Origin: Calditrichia bacterium
GTDB taxonomy: Bacteria; Calditrichota; Calditrichia; Calditrichales; Calditrichaceae
Direction: 5' to 3'
Length of the DNA stretch: 56,721 nucleotides
Assembly: GCA_026983775.1 (NCBI GenBank)
Contig: JALSTK010000094.1
Location: 1 to 56,721, forward strand
The notes under the pieces: model-generated
Told to the model about the DNA's origin: nothing
The model's input: only the letters and a program-made list of their open reading frames with translations
Databases searched by the model: none
In this document: positions 12,232-56,172 of the stretch, in pieces
Layout: each line of letters opens with the position of its first letter
Position numbering within the stretch: position 1 is the stretch's first letter
Program-made: the position numbers and the translations under genes

Positions 12232-12675
12232 CTATTTCACGTTGATCTTAATCTCTTCCGGTTTTGCTTCTTCCGCTTTGGGCAGACGCACCTGCAAAAG
12301 TCCTTTTTCCATGCTTGCTTCAATCTGATCCAGCTTGATATCCGCAGGAAAAGCAAATACACGATGGAATTTTCCGAAATCCCGTTCATATTTCAGGAAA
12401 TTGCGTTTGTTCATATCATCGTCTTCCTGCTTATCTCCGCTGATGTGCAATTTCCCATCCTGGAAGGTGATCTTCACATCCTGTTTTTCCAAACCGGGTA
12501 ATTCCATGGTCAAAAGGAAATCCTGATCGGTCTCTTCAATATTCACCGCAGGAATGAATCGACCTAAGGATTCTTCATTTTCCCGACCTTCCCCAAATAC
12601 TTCATCATAAATGCGATCGATCTCATTTTTAATGTTGAGGATATTTCTTCCGGGGACTCTGCGCATAAAAACCAT
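12232..12675 (-). CDS. Hsp20/alpha-crystallin small heat-shock protein
   Basis: ATP-independent holdase of 147 residues that binds unfolding proteins and works with ClpB/DnaK. The alpha-crystallin domain spans roughly residues 40-145: VNIEETDQDFLLTMELPGLE, then FQDGKLHISGDKQED, then FAFPADIKLDQIEASMEKGL and GLLQVRLPKAEEAKPEEIKI with the conserved GxLxVxLPK strand. An AAGGAG ribosome-binding site precedes the ATG. Upstream is a sigma-54-type promoter nearly identical in layout to that of clpB, so the two chaperones may be co-regulated. Confidence 0.93.
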   Translation of the reverse strand: MVFMRRVPGRNILNIKNEIDRIYDEVFGEGRENEESLGRFIPAVNIEETDQDFLLTMELPGLEKQDVKITFQDGKLHISGDKQEDDDMNKRNFLKYERDFGKFHRVFAFPADIKLDQIEASMEKGLLQVRLPKAEEAKPEEIKINVK

Positions 12676-50192: not shown

Positions 50193-50387
50193 CATGTTAC
50201 TCCTCTGTTTTGCGTTGTATGCTGATTCTTGATCTGTTTTAATATACAATATTTAGGCATATAAATCGGGGGCTATGTCATTTTAAGGGAGTTGCTTTTA
50301 CATATTGAGTATGCTATTGCGGAGACAAACAGTTTTGTTCAGCCGCGGGCAGGCACGGCAGCAAACGGTTCGGATTATGGCTCGCAG

Positions 50388-50419
50388 GCGCTCATACAAT
50401 CTAACCTTATTCGTTATAC
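50388..50419 (-). repeat. cassette-junction repeat, copy 1 (attC-like)
   Basis: GCGCTCA, 13 variable bases, then TATTCGTTATAC. The same two blocks with 11 bases between them recur at 50845-50874. On the gene strand the block reads GTATAACGAATA, similar to the outer boxes of integron recombination sites, and lies just past the 3' end of a leftward gene. Upstream, 50250-50387 holds GC-rich sequence without a gene. Confidence 0.5.
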
Positions 50420-50437
50420 TTTTAATCCCAACATCTG

Positions 50438-50704
50438 CTACAATTTTGAATCATTGCTTTTTGCGTCAACGAGAGTGTTAAGTAATAAATGTGTATCGTT
50501 TTCCGCTCCAACTCCCAATGATGCCAATTTTGATTGATCAAATGCATATGAAATCTCATTAAGTATTTTACCTGCGGCATCAATTAGAGCTTTAAAATCG
50601 TCGAATCTTATTTCTGCCTTTTGCAATATTTGAGGATATTTCAAGTTCTTACAAATATGTGCAAAATGATTGTTCCTTTTCCGTATAAAGGCGTCGCTTT
50701 TCAC
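50438..50704 (-). CDS. hypothetical protein, possible cassette gene
   Basis: An 88-residue open frame with helical, charged content (RFDDFKALIDAAGKILNEIS) and no family I recognise. It lies between the two copies of the 12-bp TATTCGTTATAC repeat, 455 bp apart, so it would be the payload of one small cassette. No clear ribosome-binding site is seen, as is common for cassette genes. It may be a truncated fragment. Confidence 0.35.
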   Translation of the reverse strand: MKSDAFIRKRNNHFAHICKNLKYPQILQKAEIRFDDFKALIDAAGKILNEISYAFDQSKLASLGVGAENDTHLLLNTLVDAKSNDSKL

Positions 50705-50844
50705 CCGTCCGCCATTAACTACAATGTTGAATAAAAATCTACTGTCAAAATTTATTGAAAAATTTGTTTAACTATACGAACCTTAACTACAATTTTAAAT
50801 TACAGGCCCAAACTTAAAAACCACATAAAACCTGCACAGATACA

Positions 50845-50874
50845 GCGCTCAGGTGCGAAGCCTATTCGTTATAC
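50845..50874 (-). repeat. cassette-junction repeat, copy 2 (attC-like)
   Basis: Second copy of GCGCTCA-N11-TATTCGTTATAC, directly after the 3' end of the BNR-repeat gene. The preceding AT-rich 50705-50844 contains TATACGAACC (50774), a possible degenerate partner box. Confidence 0.5.
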
Positions 50875-50878
50875 ATTT

Positions 50879-53212
50879 TTACCGTAAGAGCACTATTTTT
50901 AACGTTTTTGAATAATTGTCTCCTACCAATCTTAAAAGATATATTCCTGAAGCTAAATTGTTTGATTCTAATTTATAATAATAACTGCCAGCCTCAACAA
51001 ATGATTTTTCAATAGTTTTTACCCGTTTCCCCAAAATATTAAATAGTACAAGTTTAATTTCTGAGCTGTAGGGAACATCAATGCGAATATTAGTCTCATT
51101 ATTAAAAGGATTGGGATAATTATTATATAACTTATAATTCATTGGATTAGCAATAACTATTTTTTGAATGGGTGAAAACTTTTCATTCCAATAATCCGTT
51201 ACTGTTGAAATACGCCAATAATAAGTAGTCATAAAATTCAAATTATTTGCATGGTATGAAGTATCACTTATTACCTGATCAACAAGTAATGTCCGAAAAG
51301 TTGAATCTGTTGAAATTTGTATACGATATTCAGTAATTCCAGGTGTTATCTTCCAACGTAATGATATTGAATTTTGATTCAATTCCTTGCCATAATCTAT
51401 AATTGGTGTTATGGCAGAAGTAATTTCTTTGTATAATCCCGAAGATGTTCCAACAAAATGTTTGTTATTAGAAATGCTAATGCATTGAACTTTTCTACTT
51501 GCAAGACCAAAGTTACTTTCAACCCAAGTTTCTCCCCCATCTGAACTCATTATTACGCCATTATTTGACAATCCACAATAAATAAAGTTGCCCTCAATAC
51601 CAATTGAGTTAACAGCAGAATTGTACAGAGGATTATTAAGCTGTAACCAGGTTAATCCTAAATCTTCACTTTTAAAAAGTTTATTTACAGAACCTGATCC
51701 CAAGTAGAAAACGCCATCAGCAGAAACCGAAACAGCTTTACCAGAAAACAAATCGGGCACTGAATTATAAGTCCAACTATCTCCTAAATCATCTGAACGA
51801 TAGATGCCTGATGTTCCATTCGTAACAACAACTATTGAATCATACACAGCAATAGAAGCACTATTAATATTATTAGGCATTCCGTTGCTCATCTTTTCCC
51901 AATTATTTCCTGAATTTATACTCCGAAATACACCATAATCACTTCCTATAAACAGAACATTATTATTACCTACGATTGTTTCCAACTGTCCTGCATCTAA
52001 ATTCGGGTTTAATTTTCTCCATGAAGCGCCATTGTTGGTAGAAACAAATAACTCTTCATAGTAATGATTCGTCCATGAGGAAACTAGCACAAATACATTA
52101 TTTTCAAGAGCTAGAATTGAAGTTACAAATTTATTATTGTTTCCAAGATCCATTTCTTGCCAATTACTTAAATCTTTTGTTGCTCGAAATAATCCGGAAC
52201 CACTCGTCCCGACGAAAAGATAATCTGAATTTTGTGAAAGCGAATAAATATTTGCACTACTTATACCATTCATATATCTCATCCAATTCATCGCATTTTT
52301 ATAAGATTTATAAAATCCATCAAAAGTTGCTAAAAATAGTTCGGTTGAGTTTCCATCTATGTCTGATATTGTAAGATTTTTCAAGCCAGTATTGATTTTT
52401 GACCAACTAGCGCCTTCATTGGCAGAACGAAAGAAACCGTAATGATAAACCCCTACATATATACCGTCGCTATCCGCATAAATTGAGTTTATAATATCCG
52501 ACGGGGCATGACTACCGCTTGGCAAGAACCATGTTAATCCATCATCAACGCTTTTATAAACTTTTGCATTATTATTGAAATCAAAAGCATATAAAACACT
52601 ATCAAACTCTGTAATACCTTCAAAATTCCATGCATATTGATAAGGATCAATTCTTGACCAACTATCACCAAAATCAAGGCTTCTGAATACGCCAGAACCT
52701 GATGTCCCCGCAGCCGACGCTAAAATAATATTTGAAGAAGTAATGTGGATTTTTTCAATATCTCGATTGTCAATACCATTGTTGATTTGTTCCCAAGTTT
52801 GTCCACAATCTTTGGATCGATAAATTCCTTGATATCCGGAACCCAAATAAATCAAGGAGTCTTTTGTTTCTATTGTCTGATATCTACCCTCTTTTATTTT
52901 TACCCATTCAACATCTGCAACTTTTTTTCTATAACAGCCACCGCTGCTTATAGCAACGATGTAATCTTCACAAAATGAAATATCCCAAACTTCAAAAGAG
53001 TTCAATCCGATTGGCTGCCATATTTTCCCAAAATTTTCGCTAATATATACTCCTCCTTTGGTTCCAATAATAAGGGTATCATTTTGAACGAGTAATGAAT
53101 AAACCACGCCACCTTCTAACTTATCCGTTTTTTGCCAAAAGTAATCTTGTGCGCAAACATGAGCAAACAAGAAAATATAAACTACAAAGATTTTTATTGC
53201 ATTTCTTAACAT
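50879..53212 (-). CDS. T9SS-exported BNR/sialidase-repeat protein
   Basis: A 777-residue secreted protein. The signal peptide (KIFVVYIFLFAHVCAQ) is followed by about twelve BNR/photosystem-stability-type propeller repeats (GGVYISENFGKIWQPIG, SGVFRSLDFGDSWSRID, GIYRSDDLGDSWTYN), a fibronectin-like segment (SISLRWKITPGITEYRI) and a type IX secretion sorting domain (YNNYPNPFNNETNIRID, ending GIYLLRLVGDNYSKTLKIVL). Such proteins are secreted or surface-bound; the ligand is unknown. The frame opens at 53260 inside a palindrome, but the signal peptide favours the ATG at 53212. Codon use is markedly more AT-rich than in genes before 50 kb, a sign of transfer. Confidence 0.85.
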   Translation of the reverse strand: MLRNAIKIFVVYIFLFAHVCAQDYFWQKTDKLEGGVVYSLLVQNDTLIIGTKGGVYISENFGKIWQPIGLNSFEVWDISFCEDYIVAISSGGCYRKKVADVEWVKIKEGRYQTIETKDSLIYLGSGYQGIYRSKDCGQTWEQINNGIDNRDIEKIHITSSNIILASAAGTSGSGVFRSLDFGDSWSRIDPYQYAWNFEGITEFDSVLYAFDFNNNAKVYKSVDDGLTWFLPSGSHAPSDIINSIYADSDGIYVGVYHYGFFRSANEGASWSKINTGLKNLTISDIDGNSTELFLATFDGFYKSYKNAMNWMRYMNGISSANIYSLSQNSDYLFVGTSGSGLFRATKDLSNWQEMDLGNNNKFVTSILALENNVFVLVSSWTNHYYEELFVSTNNGASWRKLNPNLDAGQLETIVGNNNVLFIGSDYGVFRSINSGNNWEKMSNGMPNNINSASIAVYDSIVVVTNGTSGIYRSDDLGDSWTYNSVPDLFSGKAVSVSADGVFYLGSGSVNKLFKSEDLGLTWLQLNNPLYNSAVNSIGIEGNFIYCGLSNNGVIMSSDGGETWVESNFGLASRKVQCISISNNKHFVGTSSGLYKEITSAITPIIDYGKELNQNSISLRWKITPGITEYRIQISTDSTFRTLLVDQVISDTSYHANNLNFMTTYYWRISTVTDYWNEKFSPIQKIVIANPMNYKLYNNYPNPFNNETNIRIDVPYSSEIKLVLFNILGKRVKTIEKSFVEAGSYYYKLESNNLASGIYLLRLVGDNYSKTLKIVLLR

Positions 53213-53238
53213 AATTTTACTTGCATAATGATTGAACT

Positions 53239-53278
53239 CACTGGTTTTTACGGAGCGCAACGGAGTAAAAATCCAGTG
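53239..53278. repeat. attC-like imperfect palindrome
   Basis: CACTGGTTTTTAC (53239-53251) faces GTAAAAATCCAGTG (53265-53278): 13 paired bases with a single unpaired T in one arm and a 13-base loop. A stem with an extrahelical base is the structural mark of integron attC sites. It separates the small membrane protein gene from the BNR gene. Clear 7-base R boxes are not visible. Confidence 0.5.
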
Positions 53279-53288
53279 CCGTGATTTT

Positions 53289-53522
53289 TTATGTGCTTTT
53301 CTTGAAATTTTTCAAAATGTTTTTAATCTCTTCAAGTTCACGATTAATCTCTTTTGAAGACACGCTTGTCTTATACGCCATTATGATAAGTTTTACGGAA
53401 ACCAAAAAAATACCGGCCTCCAACAATAGATCATGTGTAAATCCAGTATAAAATAGAGCCATTACAAAAAAAGCAAATGTTATAGCTATTACGATAATTG
53501 AACCTATGTCAAAATGTTTCAT
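53289..53522 (-). CDS. small two-span membrane protein
   Basis: A 77-residue protein with two hydrophobic helices (IIVIAITFAFFVMALFYTGF and LLLEAGIFLVSVKLIIMAY) and a charged C-terminal helix (KEINRELEEIKNILKNFKKS). No family recognised. It sits alone between two attC-like palindromes and reads leftward, as a one-gene cassette would. Its role cannot be predicted. Confidence 0.5.
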   Translation of the reverse strand: MKHFDIGSIIVIAITFAFFVMALFYTGFTHDLLLEAGIFLVSVKLIIMAYKTSVSSKEINRELEEIKNILKNFKKST

Positions 53523-53557
53523 ATCAATACCTTATTTTTCTGTCACATAACGTGGCG

Positions 53558-53624
53558 GCGGATGATCGTTCCGAGCGCGCATAATGTCGTAGGCTATTAT
53601 GCGAGGGAGGAACGTTAGATCCGC
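53558..53624. repeat. attC-like compound palindrome
   Basis: GCGGAT-gat-CGTTCC (53558-53572) faces GGAACG-tta-GATCCGC (53609-53624), enclosing an 8-bp inner stem CGCATAAT/ATTATGCG (53578-53603). On the gene strand it includes ATCTAAC, which fits the RYYYAAC box, and farther on GTTATGT, an imperfect GTTRRRY. Adjacent GC-rich hairpins (GCCG-CCCGC around 53632-53655 and GGCGT/ACGCC around 53660-53678) extend the structured region to the hepT stop codon. Confidence 0.55.
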
Positions 53625-53691
53625 TTGATAGGCCGCCCGCCGTAGCGGGTCGGCTTTATTGGCGTGCTGTGCAACGCCCACTAATTAGAGA

Positions 53692-54045
53692 TTACTTCAA
53701 ATAAGACGAGACCATATTTTTTATTTCTTCTTCTAATTTTAAAATATCTTCGGTAGCGGTATTCCAAACTACTTGAGTATCTACGCCAAAATAATCATGG
53801 ATTAATTTGTCGCGCATTCCGGCCATAAAACGCCAGGGTATCCATGAATAATTATCTTTAACTTCTTGTGGGATTTTCTTGGATGCTTCACCAATAATCT
53901 CTAATGCTCTAATAACGGCATATTGAGTCTTTACATCTTCTTGAAAAACGGGATAATCCATATCTTTAAGGAAGGTCTTTATCTTGATTATAGAATCTAA
54001 TATATCATTTAAATAGTCAATACTTATTCTATCTTTATCTTTCAT
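53692..54045 (-). CDS. hepT: HepT-type HEPN toxin
   Basis: A 117-residue all-helical HEPN protein (DUF86), the RNase toxin half of the HepT/MntA type VII toxin-antitoxin system. The catalytic Rx4HxY motif is intact in GMRDKLIHDYFGVD (Arg near 80, His near 85). Its start overlaps the nucleotidyltransferase gene by 4 bp, the standard arrangement with antitoxin first. The pair may stabilise the cassette array, a known role for toxin-antitoxin cassettes in integrons. Confidence 0.92.
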   Translation of the reverse strand: MKDKDRISIDYLNDILDSIIKIKTFLKDMDYPVFQEDVKTQYAVIRALEIIGEASKKIPQEVKDNYSWIPWRFMAGMRDKLIHDYFGVDTQVVWNTATEDILKLEEEIKNMVSSYLK

Positions 54046-54341
54046 AATATCGATTGGGCTTCTGAAATTATTCTTTTGCCAATATTGGGTTTTAATGAGC
54101 TCTTCATTACTAAGTCGACTTTTACACCAAGTATTCCGCTTAAATAATCTTCCAATTCAATAAACTTAAATAATGAAGGCGGCTGAGAAAAAGTTACTAA
54201 AATATCTATATCACTATCCGGTGTCTGTTCATTACGAACAAAAGAACCAAATATTTCCAAAGAGAGTACATGAAAATCTGAACGTAGCTTTGTTAATTCT
54301 TTTCTTAATTTGGTGCTAATATTTTTCAAGTCGTTTTTCAT
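54042..54341 (-). CDS. mntA: MntA-type nucleotidyltransferase antitoxin
   Basis: A 99-residue minimal nucleotidyltransferase, the antitoxin that AMPylates HepT. The catalytic motif GSFVRNEQTPDSDIDILVTF lies at about residues 31-50 with GSxxR and DxD aspartates intact. It overlaps both the upstream DUF2971 gene and the downstream hepT gene by 4 bp, forming a tight three-gene unit. Confidence 0.92.
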   Translation of the reverse strand: MKNDLKNISTKLRKELTKLRSDFHVLSLEIFGSFVRNEQTPDSDIDILVTFSQPPSLFKFIELEDYLSGILGVKVDLVMKSSLKPNIGKRIISEAQSIL

Positions 54342-54769
54342 ACATCAAAAATGCTAAAATATTTTGTAAATAGCAAATTCAGCATAAACTTCTCATCTAT
54401 AACTTTTGGCGGATTTAAGCGATATCTTACATATCTAACCTTAATAAGATGGCTATCGGGAACATCGAAATCGATACAGATTCCTTTATGATTATCTGAA
54501 TAATGAGCCCACTGAACAGGACTTCTCCAGCTTTTACTAAAACATAGTATGCCATATTTTTTTGATAAATCCTTTTTTGTAGCATCGAAAGCTTCCCTTA
54601 ACAAAGGATGGGATAGGTTAATGCCCAATAGTTCAAACGGATCATTGAGACTCATAATCTCGGCAATCTTTAACCGTCTTCTTTGCAAATCATCTAACCC
54701 ATATTGCTTATTTAAGAAATGATAAACTCTCATCGTTTTTTCAGGGCTTAACATAATATTGAACCGCAA
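54338..54769 (-). CDS. truncated DUF2971 protein
   Basis: A 143-residue protein covering only the first half of a DUF2971 domain: VYHFLNKQYGLDDLQRRRLK, IAEIMSLNDPFELLGINLSH, GILCFSKSWRSPVQWAHYSD and HKGICIDFDV. Full-length members have about 250-300 residues; here the chain stops just after FTKY, where the family continues with a conserved WxxExExR-type segment. The stop is fused by a 4-bp overlap to the MntA start, so the truncation is old or was made by the rearrangement that joined them. Start may be 54769, 54754 or 54733. Confidence 0.7.
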   Translation of the reverse strand: MRFNIMLSPEKTMRVYHFLNKQYGLDDLQRRRLKIAEIMSLNDPFELLGINLSHPLLREAFDATKKDLSKKYGILCFSKSWRSPVQWAHYSDNHKGICIDFDVPDSHLIKVRYVRYRLNPPKVIDEKFMLNLLFTKYFSIFDV

Positions 54770-55065
54770 GATCCCACTTTACTTTTTAGCAAGATAAGCA
54801 ATAAGATCAGTGTATTCAAATAGGTAGCACTTTATATTCATTGTATATCTACCGGACTCATCGTCAATACAAAACAGACATCTATTGGCTATCCAGCAGT
54901 AATTAAAGAACGTATCCCTCCAAAAGCGCTGCCCTTTTACCGATTATTGCGGTAATTTAGTATATAAAAATCTGTTAGATTCATAGAAATTCAATACCCC
55001 TATTCCTTATCCCTTATTCCCTATTCCTTATTCCCCCTCCCCCTATCCCCTCTTAAAGAGTTTAA
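54770..55065. other. AT-rich gap beside the integrase relic
   Basis: About 300 bp without a gene. It holds a TTACCG/CGGTAA hairpin near 54938-54953 and a pyrimidine-rich tract with repeated CCCTATTCCTTA-like units (about 54997-55054). By position it would correspond to the attI and promoter region of an integron, but no attI box is recognised. Confidence 0.4.
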
Positions 55066-55416
55066 CAAGAAATTGCCGATGGAATCAACCGTTTACTCGA
55101 CCCGCTCAAAGAAAATATCCGCGCCGAAGGAACCTACGTTAACCGGGTAAAACAATTTATGCTCTTTCCTAATACAAAACATCCCTCGCAAATGGGCGCA
55201 CAGGAAGTCAACCGCTTTCTTACCCATCTCGCCATTCAACGAAAAGTAGCCGCATCCACTCAAAACCAAGCCTTAAACGCCATCAACTTCTTGTACAAAG
55301 AAATTCTCGAACAACCCTTCGGTCAAACGGATGACATCCCCCGGGCTAAAAAGCCCAAACGGCCCTCGCCTGAGGCGGACGACAACAAACGCGTAAAAAC
55401 CACTTGCACTATCTAA
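55066..55416 (+). pseudogene. truncated integron-integrase-like tyrosine recombinase
   Basis: An open stretch of about 116 codons encoding only the N-terminal core-binding (SAM-like) domain. The pieces TYVNRVKQFMLFPNTKHPSQ, MGAQEVNRFLTHLAIQRKVA, ASTQNQALNAINFLYKEIL and RAKKPKRP closely follow integron integrases (IntI-type; FLTHLAV...ASTQNQAL.ALLFLY). The catalytic domain with Arg-His-Arg-Tyr is missing; after KRP the sequence degenerates (SPEADDNKR) and stops. The start codon is also lost. It points away from the leftward cassette-like genes, the usual divergent layout of intI and its cassettes. Confidence 0.75.
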
Positions 55417-55438
55417 CCGTATACGTCAGGCGTTTACT

Positions 55439-56113
55439 TTAATCATTCAGGCCGATATTATACCGTTTTTTCCAATTAGCCACTTTTTCTTCAAATGGAC
55501 TTTTTATTGGTATTCCCTTCTCAGGAATATCATTAATAATCGAGACATTATCAGTCAATAAGTATTCTTTAAATCCCTCCGAATTAGCCCAGTAATATAT
55601 ACCCCAATTCAATAGATCCCATGCAGGACTATAGGGATTACACTCGTAATCAATATAAAATAAGCGATCATTTTTTATGACGAAATTATTCGGGAAGTAA
55701 TCAATATTCAGCCCATATTTTTTTACATTGTGATACATATCGAACAACTGTTCAATTATTGATTCAGAAATTTTATTTTCGGCAATCAAATGAGAAGCAA
55801 CTTCGCCATCAATATACTCTTTCAAAAGGTAGTTTCGTTTAGCATCATAACTTAAAAGTTTAGGAAGAAGTACTCCGCAAGTATGTAACTTATGATAAGC
55901 ATTTACTTCGAGTGTAACTTTATTGTTGCCACCAAAGGAATAATAATCACAAGATTCATAATGCATAATTTTGAGTACCAGATTTTGACCCCCAAACTCT
56001 ACTAAATATGAATAACCTGATTTACCTTTTCCGAGTTCTTTTTGAATAGAAACCTGCCCGAGTTTTGTTTCAAACGATTTATTTCTTATTTCTTTTGTAT
56101 TTTTCAATCTCAT
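55439..56113 (-). CDS. protein-kinase-like phosphotransferase
   Basis: A 224-residue small kinase-fold protein. It shows a glycine loop ELGKGKSGYSYLVEFGG, the ATP lysine in NLVLKIMHYE, hinge LLKEYIDGEVASHLI, a catalytic loop NIDYFPNNFVIKNDRLF with Asp and Asn in place, and metal-binding YIDYECNPYSPAWDLLNWG. It resembles the aminoglycoside phosphotransferase/choline kinase or LPS kinase groups; the substrate is unknown. Very AT-rich codon use and position between integrase relic and attC-like site suggest an acquired cassette. Confidence 0.65.
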   Translation of the reverse strand: MRLKNTKEIRNKSFETKLGQVSIQKELGKGKSGYSYLVEFGGQNLVLKIMHYESCDYYSFGGNNKVTLEVNAYHKLHTCGVLLPKLLSYDAKRNYLLKEYIDGEVASHLIAENKISESIIEQLFDMYHNVKKYGLNIDYFPNNFVIKNDRLFYIDYECNPYSPAWDLLNWGIYYWANSEGFKEYLLTDNVSIINDIPEKGIPIKSPFEEKVANWKKRYNIGLND

Positions 56114-56142
56114 TCCAAATCGATTTAGATACAGGTTTCAAG

Positions 56143-56172
56143 CGCTTAACGTCGGCTGCAATCCGTGTTTAA
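56143..56172. repeat. short palindrome after the DUF6544-like gene
   Basis: On the minus strand CTTAAACACGGATTGCAGCC leads to GACGTTAAG: CTTAA/TTAAG ends with CGG/CCG inside, and GTTAAGC fits the GTTRRRY box. It may be a decayed attC remnant, but it is shorter than usual sites. Confidence 0.3.

Follow-up and report, generated by a model that had tools for sequence, protein, structure and literature searches.

Gene order and the integrase remnant

The window, a whole contig of 56,721 nt (C94) from a 4.03-Mb Calditrichia genome, carries a run of six genes that all lie on the minus strand and, to their right, an integrase N-terminal domain on the plus strand (Table 1). Read from right to left, the six genes encode a truncated DUF2971 protein, MntA, HepT, a 77-aa membrane protein, a T9SS BNR/sortilin-like protein, and a HEPN_AbiU2-like fragment, and beyond this last gene, at the left end of the array, the next gene is a chromosomal peroxiredoxin. 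The order agrees with the original prediction of leftward accessory genes and an IntI-like domain pointing the other way, and it is the divergent arrangement of intI and cassette array that is characteristic of integrons. The setting had been described as an FCB-type chromosome; the flanks are indeed chromosomal and the phylum is Calditrichota. We found no synteny of the flanks in relatives, where the flanking genes are not adjacent, and because of this no empty site could be demonstrated.

Table 1. Features of the array, the integrase remnant and related sites (positions in the window unless a contig is named)
Feature	Position	Strand	Evidence
Terminal attC-family site: R'' GTATAAC, L''/L' stem, R' core GTT changed to GCT	50356..50419	-	Covariance model R2, 50.7 bits, E 7.7e-11 (whole own genome searched)
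HEPN_AbiU2-like gene, N-terminally truncated, last of array	50438..50704	-	PF18734 positions 123-176 of 193, E 2.9e-4 (does not reach the gathering threshold)
T9SS-secreted BNR/sortilin-like beta-propeller protein, 793 aa	50879..53260	-	TIGR04183, PF15902, PF18962
Small cassette-like unit with 77-aa membrane protein gene (53289-53522)	53289..53550	-	TTATGTG ... CACATAA at ends
Cassette-junction hairpin after HepT, ending CCACG^TTATGTG (G at 53551)	53548..53637	-	Identity to C122:171-260
HepT-type HEPN RNase toxin	53692..54045	-	PF01934 E 6.9e-29
MntA-type nucleotidyltransferase antitoxin	54042..54341	-	NF047752 E 1.6e-13, PF01909 E 1.9e-17
DUF2971 (PADLOC PDC-S31), first cassette gene, C-terminally truncated	54338..54751 (ORF to 54769)	-	PDC-S31 E 1.4e-17, profile 11-131 of 208
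attI region, reading toward cassettes, crossover G(54752)^TT(54751-54750)AAGC	54749..54957	-	Homology to C56:1-184
Candidate cassette promoter Pc, TTGACG-16-TACAAT	54840..54867	-	Same place in window and C56 copies
Integron integrase remnant, SAM-like N-terminal domain only, IntI residues ~15-97	55066..55363	+	TIGR02249 89.7 bits, E 2.2e-25
Other attI-like copies	C19:160-367; C19:1194-1400; C173:6735-6903		
TGGTGTAC-N4-GTAC boxes	C56 263-276 (intI promoter); C117 24068, 25309 (lexA, dinB-type operon)		

The DUF2971 gene starts at the attI crossover, and its PF11185 match covers only positions 1-20 of 89. The 793-aa protein probably starts at 53212, and its gene is followed by GTATAACGAATA. The membrane-protein gene occupies a 262-bp unit with a 7-nt inverted repeat (TTATGTG/CACATAA) at both ends, in which the R'' core AAC reads AAA; judging by these ends, the unit is cassette-like with a presumably mutated R''. 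The genes in the middle of the array are taken to be cassettes mainly from their position. A 2.3-kb gene had been considered a departure from classical arrays, a point that we do not uphold: such a size is not unusual, and a cassette-like unit on another contig of the same genome, C122, is a 10.8-kb type I restriction operon. The cassette-like array on that contig (C122 1-13300) comprises a SIR2-like gene and this type I restriction-modification operon with its PDC-S68 helicase, and also holds an intact attC (12450-12551) and YefM/YoeB.

The integrase remnant aligns with positions 15-97 of 315 of the NCBIfam integron integrase model TIGR02249 and scores 76.9 bits with PF13495 and 55.9 bits with the IntI model PRK15417. 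Xer models score low (XerD 16.2 and XerA 19.3 bits versus 89.7 for TIGR02249), so that the outcome named in advance as fatal to the prediction, a fragment closer to XerC or phage integrases than to IntI models, did not apply. The IntI-like domain had been placed at 55066-55416; the homology is real and stops at 55363, and the rest of the ORF is unrelated. The remnant has neither a start codon nor any part of the catalytic domain. Assignment to the IntI family takes 265 bits with TIGR02249 and the IntI-specific C-terminal region, and because the fragment, an N-terminal domain only, falls short of this, our claim is for the remnant of an integron and not for a working one. A full-length integron integrase is encoded elsewhere in the same genome (C56:304-1299, 331 aa, 474 bits against the cut-off of 265), and window positions 55165-55363 share 83% DNA identity over ~200 bp with C56:412-610, inside this intact intI (BLASTN). 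A block of ~75 nt at 55240-55320 is nearly identical to the C56 intI and the parts flanking it are far more diverged, a pattern that could reflect gene conversion between the two.

A toxin-antitoxin or defence island lying beside a stray XerC- or phage-type integrase fragment, with no integron history, would account for the gene content, as defence islands often hold MntA-HepT, DUF2971 and AbiU2-like genes, and for the negative outcome of generic attC searches (below). We regard this as very improbable: the fragment is integron-type by 70 bits over the Xer models and 83% identical to an intact intI, and it is accompanied by attI homology and an attC-family site.

Recombination sites of the array

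Window positions 54774-54957 are 87.5% identical (BLASTN) to C56:1-184, just upstream of the intact intI. This segment of ~200 bp was found five times in the genome: in the window, on C56, twice on C19, and once on C173. The four copies with a downstream gene show 77-93% pairwise identity over the last 30 nt before GTT, and after ATATTRTG^TT the identity drops to 20-37% and the four following genes differ. Because the similarity between these copies breaks off precisely at G^TTRRR, where cassettes insert, we identify the segment as attI. The junctions read GTTAAGC in the window, GTTAGGG and GTTAAAG on C19, and GTTGGGT on C173, and the window thus has a GTTRRRY crossover beside intI. On C19 the first attI-like copy is followed by a unit (BrnT/BrnA) with TTAGGG at its start and CCCTAAC at its end, and then by a unit that runs from TTAAAGC to GCGTTTAAC; as far as the sequence of such ends can tell, this is the arrangement of integron cassettes.

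The two C19 copies are parts of 330-bp composites (36-367 and 1080-1399), an attC 5' hairpin plus ~200 nt of attI, that lie between the BrnT/BrnA and 616-aa gene cassettes. They share with the delta-attI-type cassettes of class 1 and 2 integrons (PMC12901181) the replacement of the attC 3' part by an attI fragment, but differ in their chromosomal setting and in the ~200 nt of attI that adjoin an attC 5' hairpin; the composites are found on C19 and not in the window. An attI-like duplication in genome G019 was rejected as an IS91-like transposase repeat.

The attI region may contain a cassette promoter. The candidate Pc has the same position in the copies of the window and of C56 and is eroded in those of C19 and C173; matches to patterns of this type are no more numerous in the region than chance predicts, and it is the position in two copies that hints at a promoter. 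A dyad, TTACCG...CGGTAA, at window 54937-54955 is fully or almost fully conserved in every attI-region copy but that of C173 (four of five) and could be an operator or a terminator.

At the other end of the array, the last 66 nt match a repeat that occurs in several other genomes of the phylum, with up to seven DNA matches per genome. The terminal site was found by covariance model R2, which was trained on nine copies, all from other genomes, and whose other matches in the own genome are on C19 (two) and C18. By this model the family is present in 7 of 40 Calditrichota genomes, and the terminal site is 80-86% identical in DNA to copies in G022, G011, and G007. The consensus, xxxTAACGAATAAGGTTAGATTGTG...CACAATCTGAACCGTTTGTTGGAC, has an R'' with variable outer bases and a GTT core, and its structure includes a 12-bp L stem with an extrahelical G. 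We interpret the family as attC because it obeys the inverted-repeat rule of cassettes in three cases: R'' TTGGGCCTAAC is partnered by GTTAGGCCCA 841 nt upstream in G022:C280 (10 nt), TAGTGGCTAAC by GTTAGCCAC 710 nt upstream in G007:C93 (9 nt), and CCCTAAC by GTTAGGG 707 nt upstream, at an attI-like junction, on C19 of the own genome (7 nt). These three are out of about a dozen copies, and the attC role therefore rests on few cases; the remaining copies that we tested had no convincing upstream partner motif, and probably many of them stand alone or have decayed. No L-stem pair varies within the family, so that covariation is neutral on the structure, and the single-strand fold of the window site is no better than that of shuffles.

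The cassettes might instead have dispersed into ordinary chromosomal sites (attG-type), bringing along or duplicating the intI/attI piece, with no decay in place. Single attC-family cassettes do adjoin housekeeping genes in G007:C93, G022:C280, and C18 of the own genome, and attI-like pieces without intI recur at C19 and C173. The window's attI and intI remnant, however, match the order and orientation of C56, differing only by internal deletions and an insertion of ~95 bp, and we hold dispersal to be improbable. The genes at G007:C93, G022:C280, and C18 are single secreted-lipoprotein genes with an attC-family site, as if they were dispersed cassettes.

Of the attC hairpins in the original prediction, one attC-family site was recovered in the array, by the lineage-specific model R2. 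Its site at the array end means that a complete absence of attC matches at relaxed thresholds, the other outcome named as fatal, did not occur. A generic attC rule (paired R''/R' and L''/L') did not exceed chance anywhere in the window: a score of 14 or more is reached by real attCs in class 1 integrons, G031, G001, G019, C19, and C122, and the best window score, 13.5, lies inside the BNR gene at chance level. Covariance model R1, built on the attCs of relatives, recovers held-out attCs and has no match in the window; by the generic rule and R1 the array lacks a canonical attC in which R''/R' and L''/L' are intact. An Rfam scan of the window gave no matches. Multi-family attC alignments (A1-A3) were dropped, as their L''/L' registers differed across families.

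Imperfect palindromes and repeats had been proposed to separate the genes. Homology bears this out for the terminal site and for the hairpin after HepT, and the others are not above chance. The hairpin after HepT has 94% identity over 90 nt to C122:171-260 of the own genome and a fold z of -2.4; its C122 counterpart ends CCACG^TTAGTAGC, before the SIR2-like gene of a cassette closed by GCTACTAAC. Neither R1 nor R2 matches this hairpin, which by its homology is probably the 3' part of an attC. The hairpin after the membrane-protein unit folds weakly (z -1.4). To the right of the integrase remnant, an APH/Bud32-like kinase gene (55439-56113) lies between the remnant and the right flank. It was rejected as a cassette: GTTAAGC is present upstream at 56150, but there is no matching GCTTAAC at the other end and no covariance model match. 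The attC-like relic proposed beyond the kinase, at ~56140, drew no support from the generic rule, R1, R2, or the fold test (no fold, z +1.3).

The intact paralogue and its LexA-type box

The C56 integrase is full length with the R, K, HxxR, H, and Y residues. Its contig ends within the attI-side repeat, and its own array is thus not visible. An assembly duplicate was ruled out by 12-17% divergence and different neighbours, and comparison of the two sequences suggests that the window integron is a second copy of the integron to which the C56 integrase belongs. Their attI and intI parts have the same order and orientation, with ~90 nt of C56 (234 to ~325) absent from the window. This missing part holds the -10 element, the GTGTACTTTCGTAC LexA-type box, and the ATG.

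With a complete integrase on C56, the window could be without intI and nevertheless alive, its attI and promoter forming a second docking site that the C56 integrase serves in trans. The window copy retains G^TTAAGC (GTTRRRY) and the TTGACG-16-TACAAT candidate, and the attI-like copies on C19 and C173 also bear different cassettes. The first cassette gene is truncated, the terminal attC core is mutated, and no insertion in the window looks recent, all of which argue against a living site; we consider it unlikely.

The whole genome has three matches to GTGTACNNNNGTAC, one in the C56 intI promoter and one each immediately ahead of lexA and of a dinB-type operon. GTAC-N4-GTAC is found ~30 nt before lexA in 6 of 10 named Calditrichota lexA loci, with near variants in the other 4, and the TGGTGTAC-N4-GTAC box is also borne by the intI promoters of G008 and of two G019 integrons. 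The box was matched seven times in 200.8 kb of other sequence, and four of the matches are these intI promoters. The LexA protein of this genome is 83% identical to Calditrichaceae entries, and its nearest ten matches are all from Calditrichota. Because intact intI promoters share the box that precedes lexA in Calditrichota, intact intI is likely under SOS control by a phylum-specific LexA box that is not of the E. coli type. Previously, only E. coli-type LexA boxes were reported at intI genes, and the absence of others was discussed (Cambray et al. 2011, PMC3108266). We also entertain, tentatively and with more doubt than confidence, a wider view in which Calditrichota integrons are native and SOS-controlled through their own LexA box, and dispersed attI/promoter copies, that of the window included, are usable in trans by a single IntI.

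Decay of the integron and its place in the phylum

An integrase fragment of IntI identity lies divergent from the array, the attI homology breaks at G^TTRRR, an attC-family site ends the array, and genes are truncated. The IntI-type remnant and the attC-family site support the prediction of a fossil integron, and we conclude, with a probability of about 0.88, that this Calditrichota bacterium carries here a sedentary chromosomal integron that has decayed and that is a second copy beside the C56 integron. It is of a known kind, as a decayed example in Calditrichota. Several features make the decay clear: the core of the terminal attC reads GCT, the array has no canonical attC, two of its cargo genes are cut short, and intI has lost its promoter and start.

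In its active state IntI would have been transcribed rightward, and circular gene cassettes would have been inserted at attI, with the crossover at G54752^TT. The cassettes would have stacked leftward, the first being expressed from a promoter in the attI region; we infer both this past activity and the promoter. Later, deletions would have removed the intI promoter, the start codon, and all of the catalytic domain, the attC sites would have eroded, and the first and last cargo genes (DUF2971 and AbiU2-like) would have been truncated, the order and cause of these steps being our reconstruction.

The locus shares with sedentary chromosomal integrons (complete, In0, or CALIN; PMC9024848) a divergent intI, an attI on the intI promoter side, cassettes that would end in attC, and toxin-antitoxin cargo, and differs from them in having an intI of one domain, degenerate attCs, and Calditrichota as its phylum. 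Loss of LexA control accompanies integrase inactivation in chromosomal integrons (Cambray et al. 2011, PMC3108266), and the window fossil likewise lacks both the LexA-type box and the functional integrase parts: as with those inactivated integrases, control by the intI promoter was lost together with the integrase. It differs from them in that an intact paralogue is present in the same genome, whose promoter has a putative LexA box that is not of the E. coli type.

An intI over the cut-off is present in 19 of 40 Calditrichota genomes, and G031 has a canonical integron with a divergent intI and five attCs of ~136 nt. From related groups, IntegronFinder 2.0 (PMC9024848) names Chlorobi, Ignavibacteriae, and Salinibacter. 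Our search of titles and abstracts found no paper describing integrons in Calditrichota, which does not prove that none has been published. The few papers in which both words (integron and the phylum name) occur report environmental work or are unrelated, and the term integron is absent from the Caldithrix abyssi genome paper.

Calditrichota joins the phyla in which integrons are common, and the cassettes seen near the fossil carry toxin-antitoxin and restriction genes. Cambray et al. 2011 (PMC3108266) left a point open to which the C56 copy, with a box that matches the lexA promoter of its phylum, suggests an answer that can be tested. As one genome holds both the fossil and its intact paralogue, the steps of integron death can be read.
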